Positions 8,007-56,556 of a DNA stretch of 64,000 nucleotides are shown in pieces. Position 1 is the stretch's first letter. Each line of letters begins with the position of its first letter. Location: positions 124,001 through 188,000 of the forward strand of contig JAVYIN010000009.1 of assembly GCA_035968315.1 (NCBI GenBank). The letters run 5' to 3'. A program made the position numbers and the translations under genes. The DNA comes from Nitrospira sp. (GTDB lineage Bacteria; Nitrospirota; Nitrospiria; Nitrospirales; Nitrospiraceae). The notes beneath the pieces are model-generated. The model had not been told where the DNA came from, did not search any database, and saw only the letters and a program-made list of their open reading frames with translations.

Positions 8007-8366
8007 GGCGCTCTCCCCTATGTATTGACCTTCCGGCCACTTTGCTGTCGCTTCCCTCACCCACACGCGAACGAACGTTCGCGTGAACACAGGTGGCCGC
8101 ATCCATGCAACGCGACAGGCCCCAACATATTGACTGATTTAACTATAGCAGGAGGTACGAAATTGGCTCGAAATCTGATGAAATTTTACACCAGAATAAA
8201 TTAGCGATGTAAAATCAATGCCTTACGATCGCGTATCGGTTGAAATCGCCTGCTAAACAAGCAGGCAGAGCCATGATGAGCAGAAGATTATTCGAGAGGG
8301 AAACCACACAACGGACCTCGACGGTCGTTGGTAAAAAACCTTCGAAATGTGACGGACCGGCCATTC
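8007..8366. other. 360-bp intergenic region upstream of pal
   Basis: No convincing gene. The AT-rich middle (about 8130-8220) probably carries the pal promoter on the reverse strand. An inverted repeat is described separately. A 116-aa reverse frame at 8215-8565 has no ribosome binding site and poor composition, and is taken as chance. Confidence 0.5.
8183..8215. promoter_or_regulatory. inverted repeat ATTTTACA / TGTAAAAT
   Basis: Two perfect 8-bp arms separated by 17 bp, about 180-210 bp upstream of the pal start. The spacing is also close to that of -35 and -10 elements, so the arms may partly be promoter boxes (TTTACA and TAAAAT on the reverse strand). An operator is possible but unproven. 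Confidence 0.35.
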
Positions 8367-8510
8367 CTAATAGCCGTGTCCTTTTCGTTCCGACCAACGG
8401 ACAGGACGCATGACCGTTCCCAGCCCCGCCACTGCGCAAATAAACGCGAGCATGGCAAGACCGACAACGAGAAAGAACCCGGCTCTCACATCGTGAAGTA
8501 CAGGGATCAT
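8367..8510 (-). CDS. single-helix membrane microprotein, 47 aa
   Basis: An ATG at 8510 preceded by GGAGGAATC opens a 47-codon frame. Residues MIPVLHDVRAG lead into one transmembrane helix (FFLVVGLAMLAFICAVAGLG), then a basic tail (MRPVRWSERKGHGY). The strong ribosome binding site and membrane pattern make it a likely gene. Positive-inside reasoning puts the C-terminus in the cytosol. Such proteins are often accessory subunits of membrane complexes, but no partner is adjacent. Confidence 0.65.
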   Translation of the reverse strand: MIPVLHDVRAGFFLVVGLAMLAFICAVAGLGTVMRPVRWSERKGHGY

Positions 8511-8792
8511 GATTCCTCCTCTTCACTGGCCCATTTAAAACCGACCAGGCCCAGACATCTCTCACAAGTCAATTTTAGCGAATTTGCCTTGCGACTGTCA
8601 CTCTTTCGGCATAATCAATTCGTGAGACAAGCTTGACCTTTTTTTATTCTATGACAAGAACAAAGCAAACGCCATGCTGCTTTTGCGGGGGGAGAGGGGG
8701 GGGAAATTGCCGGGAGAATGGGGGTTACAAGCGACTTATCGACGTTATTGATCGTTCTACGGATCAACTCTTCACGGCATGAGGAAACCGAG

Positions 8793-8869
8793 TGGTGCGC
8801 CCGGAGGGACTTGAACCCCCAACCCTCGGATCCGAAGTCCGATGCTCTATCCAATTGAGCTACGGGCGC
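8793..8869 (-). tRNA. tRNA-Arg (anticodon TCG)
   Basis: A complete cloverleaf on the reverse strand with an encoded CCA end. The acceptor stem is GCGCCCG paired with CGGGCGC. The anticodon stem TCGGA/TCCGA closes loop CTTCGGA, giving anticodon TCG. The T arm contains GTTCAAGTC. 77 nt. It reads Arg codon CGA and, by wobble, other CGN codons. No integrase or duplicated 3' end was seen nearby. Confidence 0.95.
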
Positions 8870-8935
8870 ACGAGAGGTATTTCAAACACTTCGCGCAAGG
8901 CCATGTCAAGGAAACCCCGCGCCAACCCGGTCGGA

Positions 8936-9436
8936 CTAGAGGCAGGATTGAATGGCATCGACAATCTGCCCAATGGAACGTCCGTCGGTGGGCACGATGT
9001 GATCCGCGGCCGCCTGATATTTGGGCGTCCGCTCGGCCAGGACTTCCTGAATTTCTTCGACGAAGGACTTGGTTCCCGTCAGCGAGGGCCGCTGGGTATC
9101 TCCGCCGATGCGCATCGCAATCGTCCCGACGGAAGCGGTCAGCCAGAACAGCGTCCCGGTCTTCTTGAGACTCTCCACATTCTGAGGTCTGAGAATTGCG
9201 CCGCCGCCTGTGTCAATCACCAATCCCTCTCGCGCGGCGAGTTCCTGGCACACCGTGGATTCGAGGTCGCGGAAATAATCCCAGCCATGCTTCGCGACAA
9301 TCTCCGGGATCGTCTGTCCGGCGCGCCGCACAATTTCGGCATCGGTGGATACCACCGTTCGGCCGAGCCGCCCGGCCAGAACTTTGCCGACCGTGCTTTT
9401 CCCGGTTCCACGATAACCGATCAAGACGATGTTCAT
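8936..9436 (-). CDS. aroK: shikimate kinase
   Basis: A 166-aa P-loop kinase phosphorylating shikimate in the chorismate pathway. The Walker A motif is GYRGTGKSTVGK near the N-terminus, followed by STDAEIVRRAG (the shikimate/Mg-binding aspartate), FRDLESTVC and VIDTGGGAIL (substrate-binding GGG). A lid region, MRIGGDTQRPSL, contains the expected arginines. The ATG at 9436 overlaps the aroE stop by 4 bp, giving a translationally coupled aroE-aroK pair. The frame open to 9496 is inside aroE and is not used. Confidence 0.95.
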   Translation of the reverse strand: MNIVLIGYRGTGKSTVGKVLAGRLGRTVVSTDAEIVRRAGQTIPEIVAKHGWDYFRDLESTVCQELAAREGLVIDTGGGAILRPQNVESLKKTGTLFWLTASVGTIAMRIGGDTQRPSLTGTKSFVEEIQEVLAERTPKYQAAADHIVPTDGRSIGQIVDAIQSCL

Positions 9437-10287
9437 TGGAAACGCGACTCCAGGACCGCGCGCATCACGTCGGCCGGCGCCGGCTGATTCGTCCACAATT
9501 CAAATTGCGCCACGGCCTGATGGAGGAACATTTCGAGGCCGGGAATCGTCACACAGCCCGCCCGCTTCGCATCTTTGAGCAAGCGAGTTTCGCGTGGATT
9601 GTACACAATATCCATGACCGCCAGCCCGGAGTGGAGCAACGCCGGAGGCACACAGCTCGCCTCCACGTTGGGAGACATGCCGATGGGCGTGCAGTGGATG
9701 AGCACCTGTGCACCGGCAAGCTCACGCGCCAGCGAGGCGTCGTCCAACAACGCCTCGTGCACCGCCAACGGCGTTTTCGCACGCAGATCCGCCGCCAATG
9801 CCGACCGTTCCTTGTCATCCACACCCAGCAGGGACAGTCCGGCCACTCCAGGCTCCGCTGCCAAGGCAAAGGCGATCGCCCGCGCAGCCCCTCCGGATCC
9901 GAGCATGAGGATTCGCTTGCCGTTCAGCGAGCCGGCCCCCTCGCGCAGCGCGCGCAACGCGCCGGTCGCATCCGTGTTGTAGCCGGTCAGCTTCCCGTTC
10001 TCCGCCACGATCGTGTTGATGGCGCCGATATGCCGGGCGGTCGGCTCGACCTCGTCCAAAAACGGAATCGCCGCCACCTTGTGCGGAATCGTCACGCTCG
10101 CCCCGCGAAAGCTCCCTAAGGCGCGCAACCCCTTGATCGCATCGCCGATGGCTTCCACACGGAAGGCGAGATAGACAAAGTTCAGCCCAAGTTTTTGGAA
10201 GGCCGCATTGTGGATGGCCGGAGAAAGAGAATGCTCGACCGGATTACCAATCACTCCGCAGAATCGAGTATGCGCGTCAATGTCCAT
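9433..10287 (-). CDS. aroE: shikimate 5-dehydrogenase
   Basis: A 284-aa NADPH-dependent reductase converting 3-dehydroshikimate to shikimate. The N-terminal substrate domain has FCGVIGNPVEHSLSPAIHN and VTIPHKVAAIPFLDE with the catalytic lysine. NTDATGALRAL follows, then the nucleotide-binding LMLGSGGAARAIAFAL. The C-terminus GLEMFLHQAVAQFELW is typical. Full length. It sits with aroK and complements the aro genes at 28.9-34.4 kb. Confidence 0.95.
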   Translation of the reverse strand: MDIDAHTRFCGVIGNPVEHSLSPAIHNAAFQKLGLNFVYLAFRVEAIGDAIKGLRALGSFRGASVTIPHKVAAIPFLDEVEPTARHIGAINTIVAENGKLTGYNTDATGALRALREGAGSLNGKRILMLGSGGAARAIAFALAAEPGVAGLSLLGVDDKERSALAADLRAKTPLAVHEALLDDASLARELAGAQVLIHCTPIGMSPNVEASCVPPALLHSGLAVMDIVYNPRETRLLKDAKRAGCVTIPGLEMFLHQAVAQFELWTNQPAPADVMRAVLESRFQ

Positions 10288-10325
10288 GCGTCGTATTCAC
10301 CGTCACGCCGAAAAGATAAACTGGC

Positions 10326-11081
10326 TCACCAGACTGTCATGCCGCCATCGATCGGGAACGTGCCGCCGGTGACCCAAGCCGCTTCGTCGGAAGCCAGGTA
10401 CAACACCATGCCCGCTACTTCCTCCGGTTGCCCCGGACGCCTGATCGGGTAATGGCTGAGAATCGGATCAAGCTGTTCGGGATTGCTCATCAACGGCGCC
10501 GCCATCGGCGTGGCCACCAGCCCAGGATTGACCACATTGCAGCGGATCCCGTCCTTCGCATAATCGATAGCAATCGAGCGCGTGAGCGCGTCAAGCGCCC
10601 CTTTCGAGGCGGCATAGGCCGGGAGCAAGGGAATTCCCACCAGGCTGGCAATGGAGGAAATATTCACGATCGACCCTTTCCCCTGCGCCAGCATCGTGGG
10701 GACCACGGCCCGCGTCATGCGGAACACGCCCGTCACATTGACATCGATCACGCGCGCCCAGGTCTCGTCATCGGTTTCGTGGAGGCGTTGGCCAAAGGCG
10801 CCGATGCCAGCGTTATTGATGAGGATGTCGATCCGCTTGAATTGCCGAAGAGCCTGCTCCACAACCGCCCGAGCGTGCGACTCATCTGTCACCGAGCCCG
10901 CAACGGCAAGCACGGTGCCCTGAGCCGTTCGGATGTCTGCCGCGACGCGGTCCAGTTCGTCTTGCCGCCGGCCGGTAATCACGACCGACGCGCCCTCACG
11001 GGCAAAGCGCTTCGCCACCGCTTCCCCGATCCCGGCGTTGCCGCCAGTAATCAGAGCCACTTTCCCAGCCAGACGGCTCAT
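10326..11081 (-). CDS. SDR family NAD(P)-dependent oxidoreductase
   Basis: A 251-aa classical short-chain dehydrogenase. The nucleotide-binding motif GKVALITGGNAGIGEAVAKR is at the N-terminus, with DILINNAGIGAFG next. The catalytic Ser is in IVNISSIASLVG and the YxxxK motif in YAASKGALDALT. The conserved C-terminus is EVAGMVLYLASDEAAWVTGG...IDGG. It resembles FabG and glucose dehydrogenase-like enzymes; the substrate cannot be told. Its ATG overlaps the trmI stop by 4 bp, so the two are co-translated. Confidence 0.88.
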   Translation of the reverse strand: MSRLAGKVALITGGNAGIGEAVAKRFAREGASVVITGRRQDELDRVAADIRTAQGTVLAVAGSVTDESHARAVVEQALRQFKRIDILINNAGIGAFGQRLHETDDETWARVIDVNVTGVFRMTRAVVPTMLAQGKGSIVNISSIASLVGIPLLPAYAASKGALDALTRSIAIDYAKDGIRCNVVNPGLVATPMAAPLMSNPEQLDPILSHYPIRRPGQPEEVAGMVLYLASDEAAWVTGGTFPIDGGMTVW

Positions 11082-49283: not shown

Positions 49284-49360
49284 TTTCGGCTGAGGGCATC
49301 CGCTTGCCTTTCGGTGGCGGAGTGCCTTTGTTATTTTTTGGGATCGGGCAAATCATCCAC

Positions 49361-51295
49361 GTGATCACTGTAACGTTACGAGACGGAAAGAGCCAGGCGG
49401 TCGAACAAGGACACACCGTTGGCACCGCGCTGAAGGCCTGCGGCGTGAAGGTCGGTACTGACGTCCTTGCCGCCAAAGTTAACGGAAAGGTAGTCGATCT
49501 GTCTTGTCCGCTGACTGGCGATGCGACAGTTGAACCGATTACCTTTGCCAGTGACGAAGGCCGCGAGGTCTACCGCCATAGCAGCACCCATATCATGGCG
49601 CAAGCCGTTAAAGAAGTCTTCCCCACGGCCCAAATGACGATTGGCCCGGCGCTTGAAGACGGCTTCTTCTACGATTTCGCCTTCGACCGCCCCTTTACAC
49701 CGGAAGACTTGGAAAAGATCGAAGAGCGCGCGCGGGACATCATCAAGCGGAACCTGCCGGTCACACGGACCGAATTTTCGAAGCAGGAGGCCATCGACTT
49801 TTTCCAATCGCGCGGTGAAGGCTATAAAGTTGAATTGATCCAGGGCTTCCCGGATGGCGAGCCGATCTCCGCTTACAGCCAAGGGGAATTTGTTGATCTC
49901 TGCCGGGGTCCGCACCTCCCGGCTACCGGCCATGTCGGCGCGTTTAAGCTCCTCACGACGGCCGGCGCCTACTGGCGTGGAGACGAACGCAACCCGATGT
50001 TGCAGCGGATCTATGGCACCTCCTTCCCCACGCAAAAAGAACTCGATGCCCATCTCGCCAGGCTGGAAGAAATCAAACGGCGCGACCACCGCAAAGTCGG
50101 CAAAGAACTGGACCTCATCACGATCCAGGACGAAATCGGCCCTGGACTGGTTTTGTGGCACCCGAAGGGGGCCTTGGTCCGGCTGCTGATTGAAAACTTC
50201 TGGCGCGAGCAGCACCTCAAAGACGGATATGAGCTGGTCTACTCTCCTCATGTCGCACGGCTCGATCTCTGGAAAACCAGCGGCCATGTCGATTACTACA
50301 AGGACAACATGTTCGCCCCCATGAAGCTGGAGGGCAGCGAGTACCAGCTCAAGCCGATGAATTGCCCGTACCATATTATGATTTACAAGTCGCACCTGCG
50401 GAGCTATCGGGATCTCCCCATCCGGTATGGGGAACTCGGCACCGTCTACCGGTATGAACGGACCGGCGTGCTCCATGGCCTGCTGCGCGTGCGCGGATTT
50501 ACTCAGGACGACGCCCACCTGTTCTGCCGTCCGGATCAGATCCAGGACGAAGTCAGCCGCGTTATCGACTTCACTTTCTTCATCTTGAAGACCTTCGGCT
50601 TTGCCGAATTTGAAATTTTCCTCTCGACCAGGCCGAAGGAATCCGTCGGATCGGACGAAAACTGGACGCTGGCGACCGATTCGCTGGAGGCCGCACTGAA
50701 GTCGCGCAACCTCAATTTCCACGTGGACGAAGGCGGCGGGGCATTTTACGGCCCGAAAATCGATATCAAAATCAAGGACGCCCTCGGACGCTCCTGGCAA
50801 TGCTCCACGATCCAAGTGGACTTCAACAACCCGGAACGATTCGACCTGAGCTATATCGGTGAAGACGGAAAGTCCCATCAGCCCATCATGATCCATCGGG
50901 CATTGATGGGGTCGATCGAGCGGTTCTTTGGAATCCTGGTGGAGCATTACGGCGGCGCGTTCCCCTCCTGGCTCGCCCCGGTCCAGGCCGTGGTCATTGC
51001 AATCACCGAGAGCCAGCGCGAGTATGTCACCTCCTTCGTAGCGCAGTTAAAAGCCGCGGGCTTTCGGGCCGAAGCGGACCTGCGCAATGAAAAGATCGGC
51101 TTTAAAATCCGTGAGGCCGAAAAGGCCAAGATTCCGTTCATGCTGGTGGCAGGCGACCGCGAAGTGCAGAGCGGCACCCTTTCTGTCAGAGGGCGGAGCG
51201 GGGCCAATCTCGGCAATATGACAGGGGCTGCGGTGATCGAGATGCTCAGAAATGATGTCACTCGCGTGCAGCCCGACCTTCAACCTACACACTAA
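49361..51295 (+). CDS. thrS: threonyl-tRNA synthetase
   Basis: A 644-aa class II synthetase. N-terminal TGS domain (TVTLRDGKSQAVEQGHTVGT), then the editing/SAD domain with RHSSTHIMAQAVKEVFP and FVDLCRGPHLPATGHV. The catalytic core has zinc ligands in MNCPYHIMIYKSH and the motif RVRGFTQDDAHLFC. Anticodon domain at the end (PVQAVVIAITESQREY, GTLSVRGRSG). The GTG at 49361 matches the usual start of the TGS domain; the open frame from 49304 overlaps the tRNA 3' flank. It heads thrS-infC-rpmI-rplT. Confidence 0.95.
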   Translation: MITVTLRDGKSQAVEQGHTVGTALKACGVKVGTDVLAAKVNGKVVDLSCPLTGDATVEPITFASDEGREVYRHSSTHIMAQAVKEVFPTAQMTIGPALEDGFFYDFAFDRPFTPEDLEKIEERARDIIKRNLPVTRTEFSKQEAIDFFQSRGEGYKVELIQGFPDGEPISAYSQGEFVDLCRGPHLPATGHVGAFKLLTTAGAYWRGDERNPMLQRIYGTSFPTQKELDAHLARLEEIKRRDHRKVGKELDLITIQDEIGPGLVLWHPKGALVRLLIENFWREQHLKDGYELVYSPHVARLDLWKTSGHVDYYKDNMFAPMKLEGSEYQLKPMNCPYHIMIYKSHLRSYRDLPIRYGELGTVYRYERTGVLHGLLRVRGFTQDDAHLFCRPDQIQDEVSRVIDFTFFILKTFGFAEFEIFLSTRPKESVGSDENWTLATDSLEAALKSRNLNFHVDEGGGAFYGPKIDIKIKDALGRSWQCSTIQVDFNNPERFDLSYIGEDGKSHQPIMIHRALMGSIERFFGILVEHYGGAFPSWLAPVQAVVIAITESQREYVTSFVAQLKAAGFRAEADLRNEKIGFKIREAEKAKIPFMLVAGDREVQSGTLSVRGRSGANLGNMTGAAVIEMLRNDVTRVQPDLQPTH

Positions 51296-51305
51296 GAGGT
51301 GGATT

Positions 51306-51815
51306 ATCGTTCCCAAACTGCGCGTAAACCGTGAAATCCGAGTTCGAGAAGTTCGGGTGATTGGCCCGGAAGGAGAGCAGCTCGGCATTCTCCCGACCGC
51401 GGATGCATTCCGGCAGGCACAAGAAGGGGGCTACGATCTCGTCGAGGTCGCCCCGACTTCAGCGCCACCGGTCTGCCGGATCATGGACTATGGCAAATAC
51501 AAGTACGAGCTCAGCAAGAAAGATCACCAGAGCCGTCGCCATCAGAAGTCCACGCAGGTAAAGGAAATCAAGCTCCGCCCACGGACCGATAAGCACGACT
51601 TGGAGATTAAGATCCGTCAGATCAAGGAATTCCTGGCCGATGGGAACAAGACCAAAGTGACCCTGACCTATCGCGGACGCGAAATGGCCAACCAGGAAAT
51701 GGGCCGCACCGTGATGAATTCCGTGATCGCCGAATTAACGGAAACCGGCACGATTGAATATGCCCCGCGCATGGAAGGCCGCAGCCTTATCATGATCGTG
51801 GCTCCGAAGAATTAA
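51306..51815 (+). CDS. infC: translation initiation factor IF-3 (non-ATG start)
   Basis: IF-3 binds the 30S subunit and selects the initiator tRNA and start codon. Sequence [40 protein letters not shown]-like ([20 protein letters not shown]), then [20 protein letters not shown] and [19 protein letters not shown]. No ATG or GTG fits just before KLRVN. The codons present are ATT (51303), ATC (51306) and GTT, behind AGAGG at 51295-51299. ATC has the best spacing; ATT is the E. coli-type infC start. A longer ATG start at 51252 would overlap thrS. Confidence 0.9.
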
Positions 51816-51855
51816 CCGCACAGAACCGTTGCCATTAACCAAGAGGACGCAGCTC

Positions 51856-52065
51856 ATGAAAGCCAAAGCTCAAAAAGCCAAGACACACAAAGGTGCCAGC
51901 AAGCGATTCAAGCGGACAGGCACAGGGAAATTGGTTCGGAAGAGCGCCGGAAAGCGCCATTTATTGACACATAAGAAGAGCGACCAAAAGCGCCGGCTAA
52001 GCGGAAACAAGGCGGTGGATCAGACGGCAACCTTGTCTTTGAACCGCATCTTGCCGTATAACTAA
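51856..52065 (+). CDS. rpmI: 50S ribosomal protein L35
   Basis: A 69-aa basic ribosomal protein. [20 protein letters not shown] and [20 protein letters not shown] match L35, ending RILPYN. The ATG at 51856 lies after AAGAGGAC; a frame open from 51829 is weaker. It sits in the standard infC-rpmI-rplT order. IF-3-linked operons are often autoregulated by L20, but no site was sought here in detail. Confidence 0.95.
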
Positions 52066-52106: not shown

Positions 52107-52475
52107 ATGCCTCGCGCAAAAGGTGGATTTAAAACTAGACAGCGGAGAAAGAAGCGGATCAAGCTGGCATCGGGCCAGTACGGCGGAAAGAGCCGGCTGT
52201 TCCGCTCGGCGACAGAGAGTGTAGACAAGGGGCTCGTCTACGCGTACACGGGCCGCAAGAATCGGAAGCGGGACTTCCGGCAGTTGTGGATTGCGCGCAT
52301 CAGCGCCGCAGTCCGCGCACAGGGCCTTACCTATGGCCGGTTTATCAATGCGCTCAAGAAGGCGAATATCTTGCTGGACCGCAAAGTCCTCTCGGACATG
52401 GCCATCAAGGACGCCGCTGGGTTTGAGAAGTTGGTCGGCCTCGCCAAGCAGCATCTGACCCCTGTCGCGGCCTAA
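52107..52475 (+). CDS. rplT: 50S ribosomal protein L20
   Basis: A 122-aa ribosomal assembly protein. [20 protein letters not shown] is the basic N-terminal tail, followed by [20 protein letters not shown] and [20 protein letters not shown]. Full length. Ribosome binding site AAAGGAG. The last gene of the thrS operon; a hairpin follows. Confidence 0.96.
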
Positions 52476-52522: not shown

Positions 52523-52549
52523 GGGAGGGCGACGCATCGTCGCTCTCCC
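52523..52549. terminator. hairpin between rplT and pheT
   Basis: A 12-bp stem (GGGAGGGCGACG / CGTCGCTCTCCC, one G-T pair) with 3-nt loop CAT. It lies in the 73-bp space between convergent rplT and pheT and touches the pheT stop. Probably bidirectional. Confidence 0.7.
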
Positions 52550-54270
52550 TATGAGGCCAGCCCTGCCAATTGGGAGAGATTCACTTCGAACGCGACGACA
52601 GGCACGGCGATCTGCCAGCGCTCCAGAACTTCTGGATGGACTTCGCCGATCACGCCCAGCGGCTTCCCCGCAACGACGATCCGGCCGGCACGTCCTTCCA
52701 GGAATGAGGGATGTTGGACCGGCTCCAGGCTGTAGTCTTTTCCGACGTAGTAAAACAAGACATCGAGGCACGAGTGAAGCTCTGAGAAATGGGCGCCCGC
52801 ATGGGCGATGACGGAACCGAGCACCACCTCTGTGCGCGATCCCAGTTCGTGCGTGCTGTCGGGAATCGCCACTTCACCGGCTTCGAACAGGCGATGCGGA
52901 TAGAAGGCCCGGCTTGATGCGGCTTCGACGCGCAACAGCGACGGCAACATCCACTGGCGCAGGCAGGAGAAGGTCAAGGCCATCGCATTGTCGACTTCGA
53001 CCATCCGCCCCCAGTCTGTCCCATCCAGGCGCATCGCGCCACGATAGTTGTCCGGCGACCCCAGAATGTTGGAAATGATCTCCTGAAACCCCAGCCCGAC
53101 CATTAATTCCCGCGCCCGGTCTGACGTCTGCTCGATGCGCGACAATCCGCCGACGGTAAACTGCGCCGGCATGACCGGAACAAATTCCCCATAGCCCCTG
53201 CTGACCGCCACATCTTCAACGACGTCCATCGCGTGCATCAGGTCTTGCCGATAGGGCGGCAACTTTGCCTTGACCGTGCCCTTTCCGGCCGAAACATCAT
53301 ACCCATACACTTCCAGGGCTTGCTTCACGGTTTTGACGCCGAGTTCCTGGCCCAGCGCCTGTTCGATCGTCTTCAGCTGAATCGTCCGGGGCTTGCCCAA
53401 ATCTTGCGGCGTGACAACACGCTTCCCCAGCGGCGTGCTCTTCGGATACTGCACTTCGATCGGCTCGATGGCCGCGCCACGATCGGCGAGGTTGGCGGCG
53501 AAGATGTTCAACGTGAGCACGACCATCGGCAAATCTGTCCCCGTCACCTCCACAAACAACTCATCGTCGCCCACCCGTACTTCGCCGACTTCCCGGCTAT
53601 TGATGATCGGCGGGAACGACAGCGGCTGGTGCGTCGCGTCACGCAGAAGAGGCAGCCGACTTTGCCCCGCCAGAATATGCCCATGCTCCAATCCTTTGGG
53701 ATGGACCATGAGGATTTCCGACAAGGTCATCACCGTCTCCATGCCCAGCGGCGTGAACCGTGCCTCGTCCGGCTTGACCAATTCGTAGGTCACGGGAAAC
53801 TGGATTTTCGACAGCTGATAAATCCCGATCGAAACCGTCTTTCGCTTATGCCCAAAAATATCCGCAAGCTTTTCTTGCGTCTGAATCAACTGGGCCAGCC
53901 CTTCTTCCGTCACCCGATAGCCCTTGGCCGTGCAGGCGGCCACATAGGGGCGAACCTGTTCCAAGCCTGGCCCGACGATGAGCCGCTGCGAGGACTTCGG
54001 CTTTTTGCCGAAAAAGGCATAGGGCTTGAGCTTGCCCTGTTGCTTGATGCGGATCTGCCGCGCGATCCCTTCGCAGCACCAGAGATCAGGCCGGTTGCTG
54101 TCTTGCAGCTCAACCCGCAGCTCGCCGGTCTCGGCATTGTGCCCCTTGAGTTCGCCCTTCACGAGCATGAGCCACTCTTCCACCTGTTCGATGGACACCG
54201 AGCGCTTCGCACGGCCGGTGGAGGCCAGGAGCGACTCGAAATCGTCTTTATAAATAGAAATCGTGGGCAT
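52549..54270 (-). CDS. pheT: phenylalanyl-tRNA synthetase beta subunit, archaeal/eukaryotic type
   Basis: A 573-aa PheT. N-terminus MPTISIYKDDFESLLASTGR with LQDSNRPDLWCCEGIARQIR, the signature of the short archaeal-type beta subunit. B3/B4 region includes VVLTLNIFAANLADRGAAIE, and B5 is YPKSTPLGKRVVTPQDL with LPPYRQDLMHAMDVVEDVAV. It lacks the N-terminal tRNA-binding EMAP-like domain and the C-terminal B8 domain of bacterial PheT (about 800 aa). Eight bases separate it from pheS. This form is reported for spirochetes among bacteria; here it is convergent to rplT, the usual site of bacterial pheST. Confidence 0.9.
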   Translation of the reverse strand: MPTISIYKDDFESLLASTGRAKRSVSIEQVEEWLMLVKGELKGHNAETGELRVELQDSNRPDLWCCEGIARQIRIKQQGKLKPYAFFGKKPKSSQRLIVGPGLEQVRPYVAACTAKGYRVTEEGLAQLIQTQEKLADIFGHKRKTVSIGIYQLSKIQFPVTYELVKPDEARFTPLGMETVMTLSEILMVHPKGLEHGHILAGQSRLPLLRDATHQPLSFPPIINSREVGEVRVGDDELFVEVTGTDLPMVVLTLNIFAANLADRGAAIEPIEVQYPKSTPLGKRVVTPQDLGKPRTIQLKTIEQALGQELGVKTVKQALEVYGYDVSAGKGTVKAKLPPYRQDLMHAMDVVEDVAVSRGYGEFVPVMPAQFTVGGLSRIEQTSDRARELMVGLGFQEIISNILGSPDNYRGAMRLDGTDWGRMVEVDNAMALTFSCLRQWMLPSLLRVEAASSRAFYPHRLFEAGEVAIPDSTHELGSRTEVVLGSVIAHAGAHFSELHSCLDVLFYYVGKDYSLEPVQHPSFLEGRAGRIVVAGKPLGVIGEVHPEVLERWQIAVPVVAFEVNLSQLAGLAS

Positions 54271-54278
54271 GGTCGCAG

Positions 54279-55844
54279 CTAAAAGATTCCCCGCGTCGTG
54301 CGGATCAAGTCCAAATTATCGGTGAACAGCTCACGGATATCGTGAATGCCGAGCGCCACCATGGCCATCCGGTCCAGCCCAAGCCCCCAGGCAATCACCG
54401 GGACATTCACCCCTAATGGCAAGGTGACCTCCGGGCGAAACAGCCCGGCCCCGCCGAGTTCCATCCACCCTAAGCGCGGATGGCGCACGTGCATTTCCAC
54501 CGACGGTTCGGTGAACGGGAAATAGGCCGGCAGAAACTTTACTTCCTTTGCCTGGGCCACTTCCCGTGCGAAGAGATTCAGCAGGCCTAAGAGCGTGCGG
54601 AAATTGATGTCTTCGCCCAGCACAATGCCCTCGACCTGAAAAAAATCGGTGGCGTGCGTCGCATCGACCTGATCGTAGCGGAAACAGCGTGCGATGGAGA
54701 AATACTTCCCCGGCACAGCCGGAACCGACGCCAGCGTCCTGGCCGAGACTGCCGTGCCCTGGCTGCGGAGCACCAGCCGCTTGGCCCGTTCGCCATTGAA
54801 GGCGTACTTCCATCCCGTGGAGCCGGTCTTGCCGCCATTCTCGTGGGCCTTCGTCACCTGCGTCAGGAACGGCTCGTCGATTTTCGTGGCATGGGTGGGA
54901 TCTTTCACAAAATAGACGTCGTGAATGTCCCGCGCCGGGTGAAACTGCGGCATGAAGAGCGCGTCCATATTCCAAAACTCTGTTTCGACCAGCGACCCGC
55001 GCATTTCCTGAAAACCCATGCTCACGAGTTTTGTCTTCACGGTGTCGAGAAACTCGCGATAGGGATGTTTCTTTCCTGTGCCGATTCGTGGCGCCCGCAG
55101 GCTGATCGTGTATTTGCGGAACCGCTTGCCTCGCCAACTGCCGTCCTTCAACAATTCCGGCGTGAGCTGGGAGACTTCTTCCGCGACGCCTTCGCGCAGA
55201 AGGTGCTCCGCTGCGGTTGCCCCATTGGGTGAGAGCGTGAACGATCGCGTGACACGGTCATCCACGCGGAACGGTTCTTTGGCATTGCCGCGCTTCACGG
55301 CATAATCTTCGATGATCTGGCGATGTGGTTCCGAGAAGCTCGTCAAGTCTCTGGCAGACTCGTGGACTTCCTTAAGCAAGGTGCGAATCGCCTCAATGGT
55401 CGGACTGGAACGTCCGGTCGCTTCGATACAGCCGCCCTGGACAATCAGCAGCACGCCTTCCTTTTTCAGGCGGCCGACGGCCTTGCTGACATCGGAGGGA
55501 TCCAACCCGTCCTGCGCCTGCAAGTCGGGGATCGTCAGCCGCTTGCCCGTGCTGGCGACTTCTCGCGCGGCCGCGAACACCCGCTCGATCGGGGAAGCGG
55601 TGGCAAAATATTGCTCGCCGAGTTTCGTCAGCGACACCACCGGCGTGACCGTCTCGGCATGCACCATGAGCAGCGACTTGGCCAGCAACCACTCGATGGC
55701 CATGCTCAGCTGGGAGGGCTCCAATTCGGCTGCGGCGGCCAGCTGCTCGGTTCCCAGCACCGATCCGAACGGGCGCGCGCCAAAGGCCGTGAGGACTTTG
55801 ATTTCGAGGGGGTGCAGGCTGTCGATGAGTCCGGAAATATCCAC
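54279..55844 (-). CDS. pheS: phenylalanyl-tRNA synthetase alpha subunit, archaeal/eukaryotic type
   Basis: A 522-aa alpha subunit, longer than bacterial PheS (about 340). The first 230 residues carry winged-helix-like domains (LHPLEIKVLTAFGARPFGSV, LTIPDLQAQDGLDPSDVSKA), typical of archaeal/eukaryotic PheS. The class II core has MDALFMPQFHPARDIHDVYF, YFSIARCFRYDQVDATHATD, YFPFTEPSVEMHVRHP and AWGLGLDRMAMVALGIHDIR. A GTG at 55844 (VDISGLIDSLHP) is the best start; upstream sequence overlaps rpe. Ten bases separate it from rpe. Confidence 0.9.
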   Translation of the reverse strand: MDISGLIDSLHPLEIKVLTAFGARPFGSVLGTEQLAAAAELEPSQLSMAIEWLLAKSLLMVHAETVTPVVSLTKLGEQYFATASPIERVFAAAREVASTGKRLTIPDLQAQDGLDPSDVSKAVGRLKKEGVLLIVQGGCIEATGRSSPTIEAIRTLLKEVHESARDLTSFSEPHRQIIEDYAVKRGNAKEPFRVDDRVTRSFTLSPNGATAAEHLLREGVAEEVSQLTPELLKDGSWRGKRFRKYTISLRAPRIGTGKKHPYREFLDTVKTKLVSMGFQEMRGSLVETEFWNMDALFMPQFHPARDIHDVYFVKDPTHATKIDEPFLTQVTKAHENGGKTGSTGWKYAFNGERAKRLVLRSQGTAVSARTLASVPAVPGKYFSIARCFRYDQVDATHATDFFQVEGIVLGEDINFRTLLGLLNLFAREVAQAKEVKFLPAYFPFTEPSVEMHVRHPRLGWMELGGAGLFRPEVTLPLGVNVPVIAWGLGLDRMAMVALGIHDIRELFTDNLDLIRTTRGIF

Positions 55845-55854
55845 CCTGAATGGC

Positions 55855-56556
55855 CTATCGATGGAGTGCGGCGTGCGCCATGGTTGAGGAAGCCGGCTGA
55901 CCGGCTGACCGTAATGCGGCAATAGTCCCGGCATAGTCCCGGCTGGAGAAAATGGCCGACCCGGCGACGAGCACATCGGCCCCGGCCGCCAATACCTGAG
56001 CGGCATTGTCGACTTTTACGCCGCCATCCACTTCGAGCAACGCCGGGCTGTGGAGACGATCCAGCATCTCGCGGACGGCGGTAATCTTCTGCAGCGCGGA
56101 TGGAATAAACTTCTGCCCGCCGAATCCGGGGTTCACCGACATGATCAGCACCAGATCAACCTCAGGCAAAATTTCTTGCAGCAAACTGACCGGCGTTGCG
56201 GGATTCAGCGTGACCCCGGCCTTCGCACCTCGTTCTTTGATCAACTGAATCGTGCGATGCAGATGGGGACAGGCCTCCACGTGCACCGTGACGTAGTCCG
56301 CCCCGGCCGCAACAAATTCTGGAATGAACGCATCGGCGTTGGTAATCATCAGATGCACGTCGAGCGGCAGCTTGGCGACTTTCTTAATCGATTCAACCAC
56401 CGGCGGCCCGATGGTGAGATTCGGCACAAAATGGCCATCCATAACATCAATGTGCAGGAGATCCGCGCCGCCCCGTTCAACCGCGGCGATTTCATCGGCA
56501 AGCCGGACGAAATCCGCGGCAAGGATAGAGGGGGCAATCTGCACTCGATTACTCAT
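55855..56556 (-). CDS. rpe: ribulose-phosphate 3-epimerase
   Basis: A 233-aa TIM-barrel enzyme of the pentose phosphate pathway. Motifs: IAPSILAADFVRLADEIAAV, LLHIDVMDGHFVPNLTIGPP with metal residues, YVTVHVEACPHLHRTIQLIK, LIMSVNPGFGGQKFIPSALQ and LEVDGGVKVDNAAQVLAAGA. The ATG at 56556 overlaps the rsmB stop by 8 bp. Confidence 0.95.
   Translation of the reverse strand: MSNRVQIAPSILAADFVRLADEIAAVERGGADLLHIDVMDGHFVPNLTIGPPVVESIKKVAKLPLDVHLMITNADAFIPEFVAAGADYVTVHVEACPHLHRTIQLIKERGAKAGVTLNPATPVSLLQEILPEVDLVLIMSVNPGFGGQKFIPSALQKITAVREMLDRLHSPALLEVDGGVKVDNAAQVLAAGADVLVAGSAIFSSRDYAGTIAALRSAGQPASSTMAHAALHR

Follow-up and report, generated by a model that had tools for sequence, protein, structure and literature searches.

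An archaeal/eukaryotic-type phenylalanyl-tRNA synthetase, probably acquired by replacement at the rplT locus, is the only PheRS of a Nitrospira genome

The pheS-pheT pair of the Nitrospira genome investigated here encodes the cell's only phenylalanyl-tRNA synthetase (PheRS), and both of its subunits are of the archaeal/eukaryotic type by profile, domain content, predicted fold, and the trees of both subunits. We consider it probable (roughly 85%) that this sole PheRS goes back to an archaeal/eukaryotic-type pheST that was transferred into an early ancestor, was fixed at rplT, and displaced the bacterial pheST. The pair resides in a 64,000-nucleotide stretch of contig JAVYIN010000009.1 (hereafter, the window), where rsmB, rpe, and pheS-pheT follow one another on the minus strand (Table 1). 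The GTG start of pheS comes immediately after the stop of rpe, a gene named tentatively from its sequence, and 8 bp separate pheS from pheT. As the initial annotation had stated, the pair is convergent to thrS-infC-rpmI-rplT, which the open reading frame (ORF) positions bear out; a simple scan listed no terminator in the gap between rplT and pheT.

Table 1. Features of the pheS-pheT region, with positions in the window
Gene	Position	Strand	Description	Basis
pheS	54279-55844	-	archaeal/eukaryotic-type PheRS alpha, 521 aa, GTG start	NF003210, PF01409, AlphaFold2, PDB fold match
pheT	52549-54270	-	archaeal-type PheRS beta, 573 aa	TIGR00471, AlphaFold2, 2cxi match, editing-site residues
rpe	55855-56556	-	ribulose-phosphate 3-epimerase, directly 5' of pheS	ORF, tblastn synteny
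thrS	49355-51295	+	opens the convergent thrS-infC-rpmI-rplT cluster; start only approximate	ORF, synteny
infC	51252-51815	+	start uncertain	ORF, synteny
rpmI	51829-52065	+		ORF, synteny
rplT	52107-52475	+	3' end is the site of pheS-pheT in bacterial-type relatives	ORF, synteny

Against curated profiles, PheT scored 449 bits with TIGR00471 (pheT_arch), well above its cut-off of 283, and 106 bits with TIGR00472 (pheT_bact), below its cut-off of 403. PheS scored 564 bits with NF003210, compared with 350 for the generic TIGR00468, and its PF01409 match reached 281 bits. Since such curated profiles name the gene correctly, the archaeal-type label is already present in database annotation. PheT keeps the B3/B4 editing region. 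In a Pfam search, it contained B5 and a catalytic-like domain, and neither tRNA_bind (B2) nor FDX-ACB (B8, PF03147) was found; the controls, namely E. coli PheT and a bacterial-type PheT from Nitrospirota family f10, contained both. Archaeal/eukaryotic PheRS is defined by three DNA-binding-like domains on the alpha subunit and a beta subunit without B8 (PMC3275996), and the predicted models and domain content of PheS and PheT fit this published description. The initial annotation had taken a 573-aa PheT without the N-terminal tRNA-binding domain as an archaeal trait. While the length and the absence of B2 were borne out by the ORF and by Pfam, this absence is not diagnostic by itself, because bacterial-type PheT proteins of Nitrospirota often lack B2 too: most of them (families f11, f14, and f17-f29) match TIGR00472 mainly from about position 156, in frames of ∼680-735 aa, and the one that was Pfam-checked (L167, G046, f21; 8684-10744) contained B3_4 and FDX-ACB without B2 (PF01588). 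The whole TIGR00472 profile was matched by PheT of f10, f13, and G130. The diagnostic marks are instead the loss of B8 at the PheT C-terminus and the position in the trees.

An AlphaFold2 model of PheT (mean pLDDT, 85.7) matched the P. horikoshii fragment 2cxi over its N-terminal half with a TM score of 0.95 and an rmsd of 1.7 Å, and this half is 40% identical to P. horikoshii PheT. When the whole PheT chain was used for structure comparison, eukaryotic cytosolic PheRS beta was matched ahead of any bacterial PheRS beta. The overall pTM of the PheS model was only 0.42, with a block of residues 1-220 at a pLDDT of mostly 85-93, over which repeated helix-helix-helix-hairpin modules are predicted. 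These helical-hairpin modules agree with the winged-helix-like N-domains first read from the sequence for a protein of ∼522 aa (521 aa from the GTG), and they occupy approximately residues 10-220, ahead of the class II catalytic domain. The best PDB fold match of PheS was human cytosolic PheRS alpha (3l4g, E = 1.5e-26), with a full-length match to 3l4g_C extending over 522 columns.

PheT retains Leu202, Ser211, and Thr236 (P. horikoshii numbering), which we take to be editing-site positions of P. horikoshii PheRS, and it differs from that enzyme at the editing-site Asp234, which is Glu both here and in the human protein. Asn217 (in the same numbering), which replaces the bacterial His in the editing site (PMC3275996), is conserved in 22 of 22 archaeal-type PheT sequences from Nitrospirota. 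With these editing-site residues kept, PheT would be expected to edit Tyr-tRNA-Phe. By analogy with the family, the enzyme is predicted to be an (alpha-beta)2 tetramer, in which (i) alpha would activate Phe and charge tRNA-Phe, (ii) the B3/B4 region of beta would hydrolyze Tyr-tRNA-Phe, and (iii) the winged-helix-like modules at the N-terminus of alpha would help to bind the tRNA, taking over from the B2 and B8 domains of the bacterial enzyme. Further, human cytosolic PheRS cannot hydrolyze m-Tyr-tRNA-Phe (PMC3275996), from which one would predict weaker m-Tyr clearance in bacteria with an archaeal-type PheRS than in those with the bacterial enzyme. In another archaeal-type PheT (L159, G026; 8221-10209), a 675-aa frame with gaps in the profile match near positions 308-315 and 497-498 suggests in-frame insertions.

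The subunit trees comprised Nitrospirota of both types, a few other bacteria, and two to three eukaryotes, with a 348-residue P. horikoshii fragment as the sole archaeal row, in the PheT tree. In both trees, the split between archaeal/eukaryotic and bacterial PheRS received 100/100 support, and the window PheS and PheT each fell on the archaeal/eukaryotic side, outside the bacterial clade; the type assigned in the initial annotation is thus upheld by phylogeny, on few archaeal and eukaryotic rows. Moreover, all archaeal-type sequences of Nitrospirota formed one clade, with 99/95 support for PheS (against eukaryotes) and 100/98 for PheT (against eukaryotes and Pyrococcus). The Nitrospira enzyme shares with archaeal/eukaryotic cytosolic PheRS (P. 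horikoshii 2cxi and human 3l4g) its domain content, the editing-site Asn, the helical modules at the N-terminus of alpha, and the fold, but it acts in a bacterial cell on a tRNA-Phe without G20. With bacterial (Thermus/E. coli-type) PheRS it shares the reaction and the neighborhood 3' of rplT, whereas it differs in lacking B2 and B8 in PheT, in the other fold of ∼220 N-terminal residues of PheS, and in the side on which its subunits fall in both trees.

Among 148 Nitrospirota genomes, 84 contained an archaeal-type PheT and 59 a bacterial-type PheT by the TIGR00471 and TIGR00472 cut-offs, none contained both, and the remaining five yielded PheT fragments or nothing. PheRS type divides the phylum by family. 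The archaeal type was present in every tested genome of the same genus, family, order, and class as the window, as well as elsewhere in the phylum in families f8, f9, f12, f15, and f16. Because all tested relatives up to the class share it, the archaeal-type PheRS is a lineage-wide trait and not a feature of one genome, and its replacement of the bacterial form is ancient. PheRS is universal and essential and is a frequent choice of phylogenetic marker, so trees built on it will be misled by a phylum in which both types occur; conversely, the swap can help, as a derived character, to classify the families of Nitrospirota.

The window belongs to a Nitrospira genome of 3.11 Mb in 11 contigs (99.97% complete) with exactly one PheS and one PheT. 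A profile search of this whole genome found no second PheRS and no bacterial pheST, in line with the initial proposal that the archaeal-type pair is not an extra copy. Two candidates from this search were rejected: a second PF01409 match was HisRS, and a second TIGR00472 match, in a 725-aa frame that is presumably MetRS, was confined to the region of the profile for the tRNA-binding domain. The 80 best public matches of PheT were all from Nitrospira or other Nitrospirota, with identities of up to 98% and Nitrospira as the closest. No PheT-type matches were found in viral contigs, and a search of plasmids and phages for archaeal-type PheRS returned bacterial-type matches only. Contamination or misassembly of this one genome as the source of the archaeal-type PheRS is already refuted, and we give it practically no weight: dozens of independently assembled Nitrospira genomes contain the same gene, among them the complete chromosome of N. 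moscoviensis (L040), and its gene neighborhood is the same in the relatives examined.

The gene order in E. coli is rplT-pheM-pheS-pheT, and in bacterial-type Nitrospirota a tblastn synteny analysis placed pheS-pheT co-directionally after rplT in 15 of 19 loci (13 families). Among archaeal-type loci, the pair lies 3' of rplT on the opposite strand in 13 of 22, including the window, and in seven of 12 families (f1, f2, f3, f7, f9, f15, and f16), either as a direct neighbor or within ∼3.5 kb. In f5, f6, f8, and f12 the archaeal pair is located away from rplT, and in f4 the contig ends there; the rpe-pheS neighborhood is kept in f1, f2, f4, f5, f8, and f15. The replacement in place that was first proposed is supported by these loci, since the archaeal pair sits, reversed, at the position directly 3' of rplT that pheST occupies in E. 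coli and in bacterial-type Nitrospirota. The reversed orientation relative to bacterial pheST indicates that this was not a clean allelic exchange, and the best reading is a replacement at the rplT locus with the orientation reversed. The convergent arrangement is unusual, and its presence in families as distant as f1 and f16 speaks for a single event. In the simplest sequence of steps, an archaeal-type pheST would have been transferred horizontally, probably once, into an early member of the lineage that gave rise to Nitrospiria and its allied families in Nitrospirota; the pair would have been fixed just 3' of rplT in reversed orientation, and the bacterial pheST would then have been deleted. 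In f10 (L165, G013) and f13 (L180, G006), a full-length bacterial pheT is located away from rplT, unlike in other bacterial-type families, possibly through a separate bacterial replacement or a relocation.

The number of acquisitions was further examined with an RpoB tree of the same genomes, from which G006 was left out. Its best topology needs two label changes, with f12 falling among the bacterial-type families at weak support, which would fit more than one acquisition within Nitrospirota, with f12, and perhaps the divergent f16, being separate from the Nitrospiria lineage. The rplT context is also missing in f12, and f16 PheT is only ∼40% identical to window PheT. However, both subunit trees place f12 inside a single archaeal-type clade, albeit with minimal archaeal sampling; a single clade of archaeal-type genomes is not rejected on RpoB (p-AU = 0.245); and f16 has the same convergent rplT context. 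We therefore regard multiple acquisition as unlikely, although deserving of some weight. The RpoB of f16 (L255 from G010 and L256 from G019) lies in an open frame of ∼1,725 aa whose two profile matches are several hundred residues apart, suggesting that it contains a large insertion.

A patchy distribution in the phylum could also arise by vertical retention, with both PheRS types present early and sorted by differential loss. This is very improbable, given that the two types do not occur together in any of the 148 genomes and that the bacterial pheST of Nitrospirota lies at a conserved operon site that it shares with E. coli pheST, which suggests that bacterial pheST after rplT is the older state in bacteria. 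A different question concerns the donor, which may have been another bacterium, such as a spirochaete or a member of another phylum with archaeal-type PheRS, rather than an archaeon directly, or Nitrospirota may have been the donor to others. The similar subunit sizes of the archaeal-type PheRS in Spirochaetaceae (alpha, 513-528 aa; beta, 514-573 aa; PMC3191353) speak for such a route, which we judge to be about as doubtful as multiple acquisition.

Spirochaetaceae, namely Borrelia, Treponema, and Spirochaeta, are an established case of bacteria with an archaeal PheRS (Andam and Gogarten 2011, PMC3191353); the initial remark that this type is known from spirochetes was right, but it holds for that family alone (PMC3191353). 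As in Nitrospirota, both subunits in Spirochaetaceae are archaeal-type with the same sizes, they mark a clade, and they replaced the bacterial PheRS, which is still found in sister families. The present case differs in its phylum, in the tie of the replacement to the locus downstream of rplT, and in the examination of tRNA-Phe. It is a second solid example of a gene swap already known from spirochaetes; among open-licence literature, we found no paper that links Nitrospira or Leptospirillum with archaeal PheRS, which is weak evidence of absence.

The Phe identity elements G34, A35, A36, and A73 are used throughout, while position 20 is G in yeast and Aeropyrum pernix, and E. coli has U20/U59 (PMC9976931). 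Cross-reaction between the PheRS-tRNA pairs of bacteria and those of archaea and eukaryotes is reported not to occur (PMC3275996). In the tRNA-Phe of 22 archaeal-type Nitrospirota genomes, position 20 was U in 18 and C in four, and G20 was found in none; it was U in all 15 bacterial-type genomes compared, so that C20 was seen only with an archaeal PheRS. Because the tRNA-Phe stayed bacterial-like, the enzyme must accept a tRNA-Phe without G20. The pairing of an archaeal-type PheRS with a tRNA of bacterial appearance in one bacterium thus offers a natural test of the way in which the barrier to cross-reaction is overcome. Somewhat short of even odds, we would place a fuller reading, in which one ancient replacement in place, separate from that in spirochaetes, brought an archaeal PheRS to the greater part of one side of Nitrospirota, it was the enzyme and not the tRNA that adapted, to a bacterial tRNA-Phe without G20, position 20 was relaxed, and the anticodon stem was rebuilt in f1 and f2. 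This stem reads CAGCC/GGCTG in the tRNA-Phe of f1 and f2 (L279-L286) and GAGGC/GCCTC or GAGGA/TCCTC in other Nitrospirota families; in a small and phylogenetically clustered sample, this altered stem and C20 may reflect a relaxed or shifted constraint.
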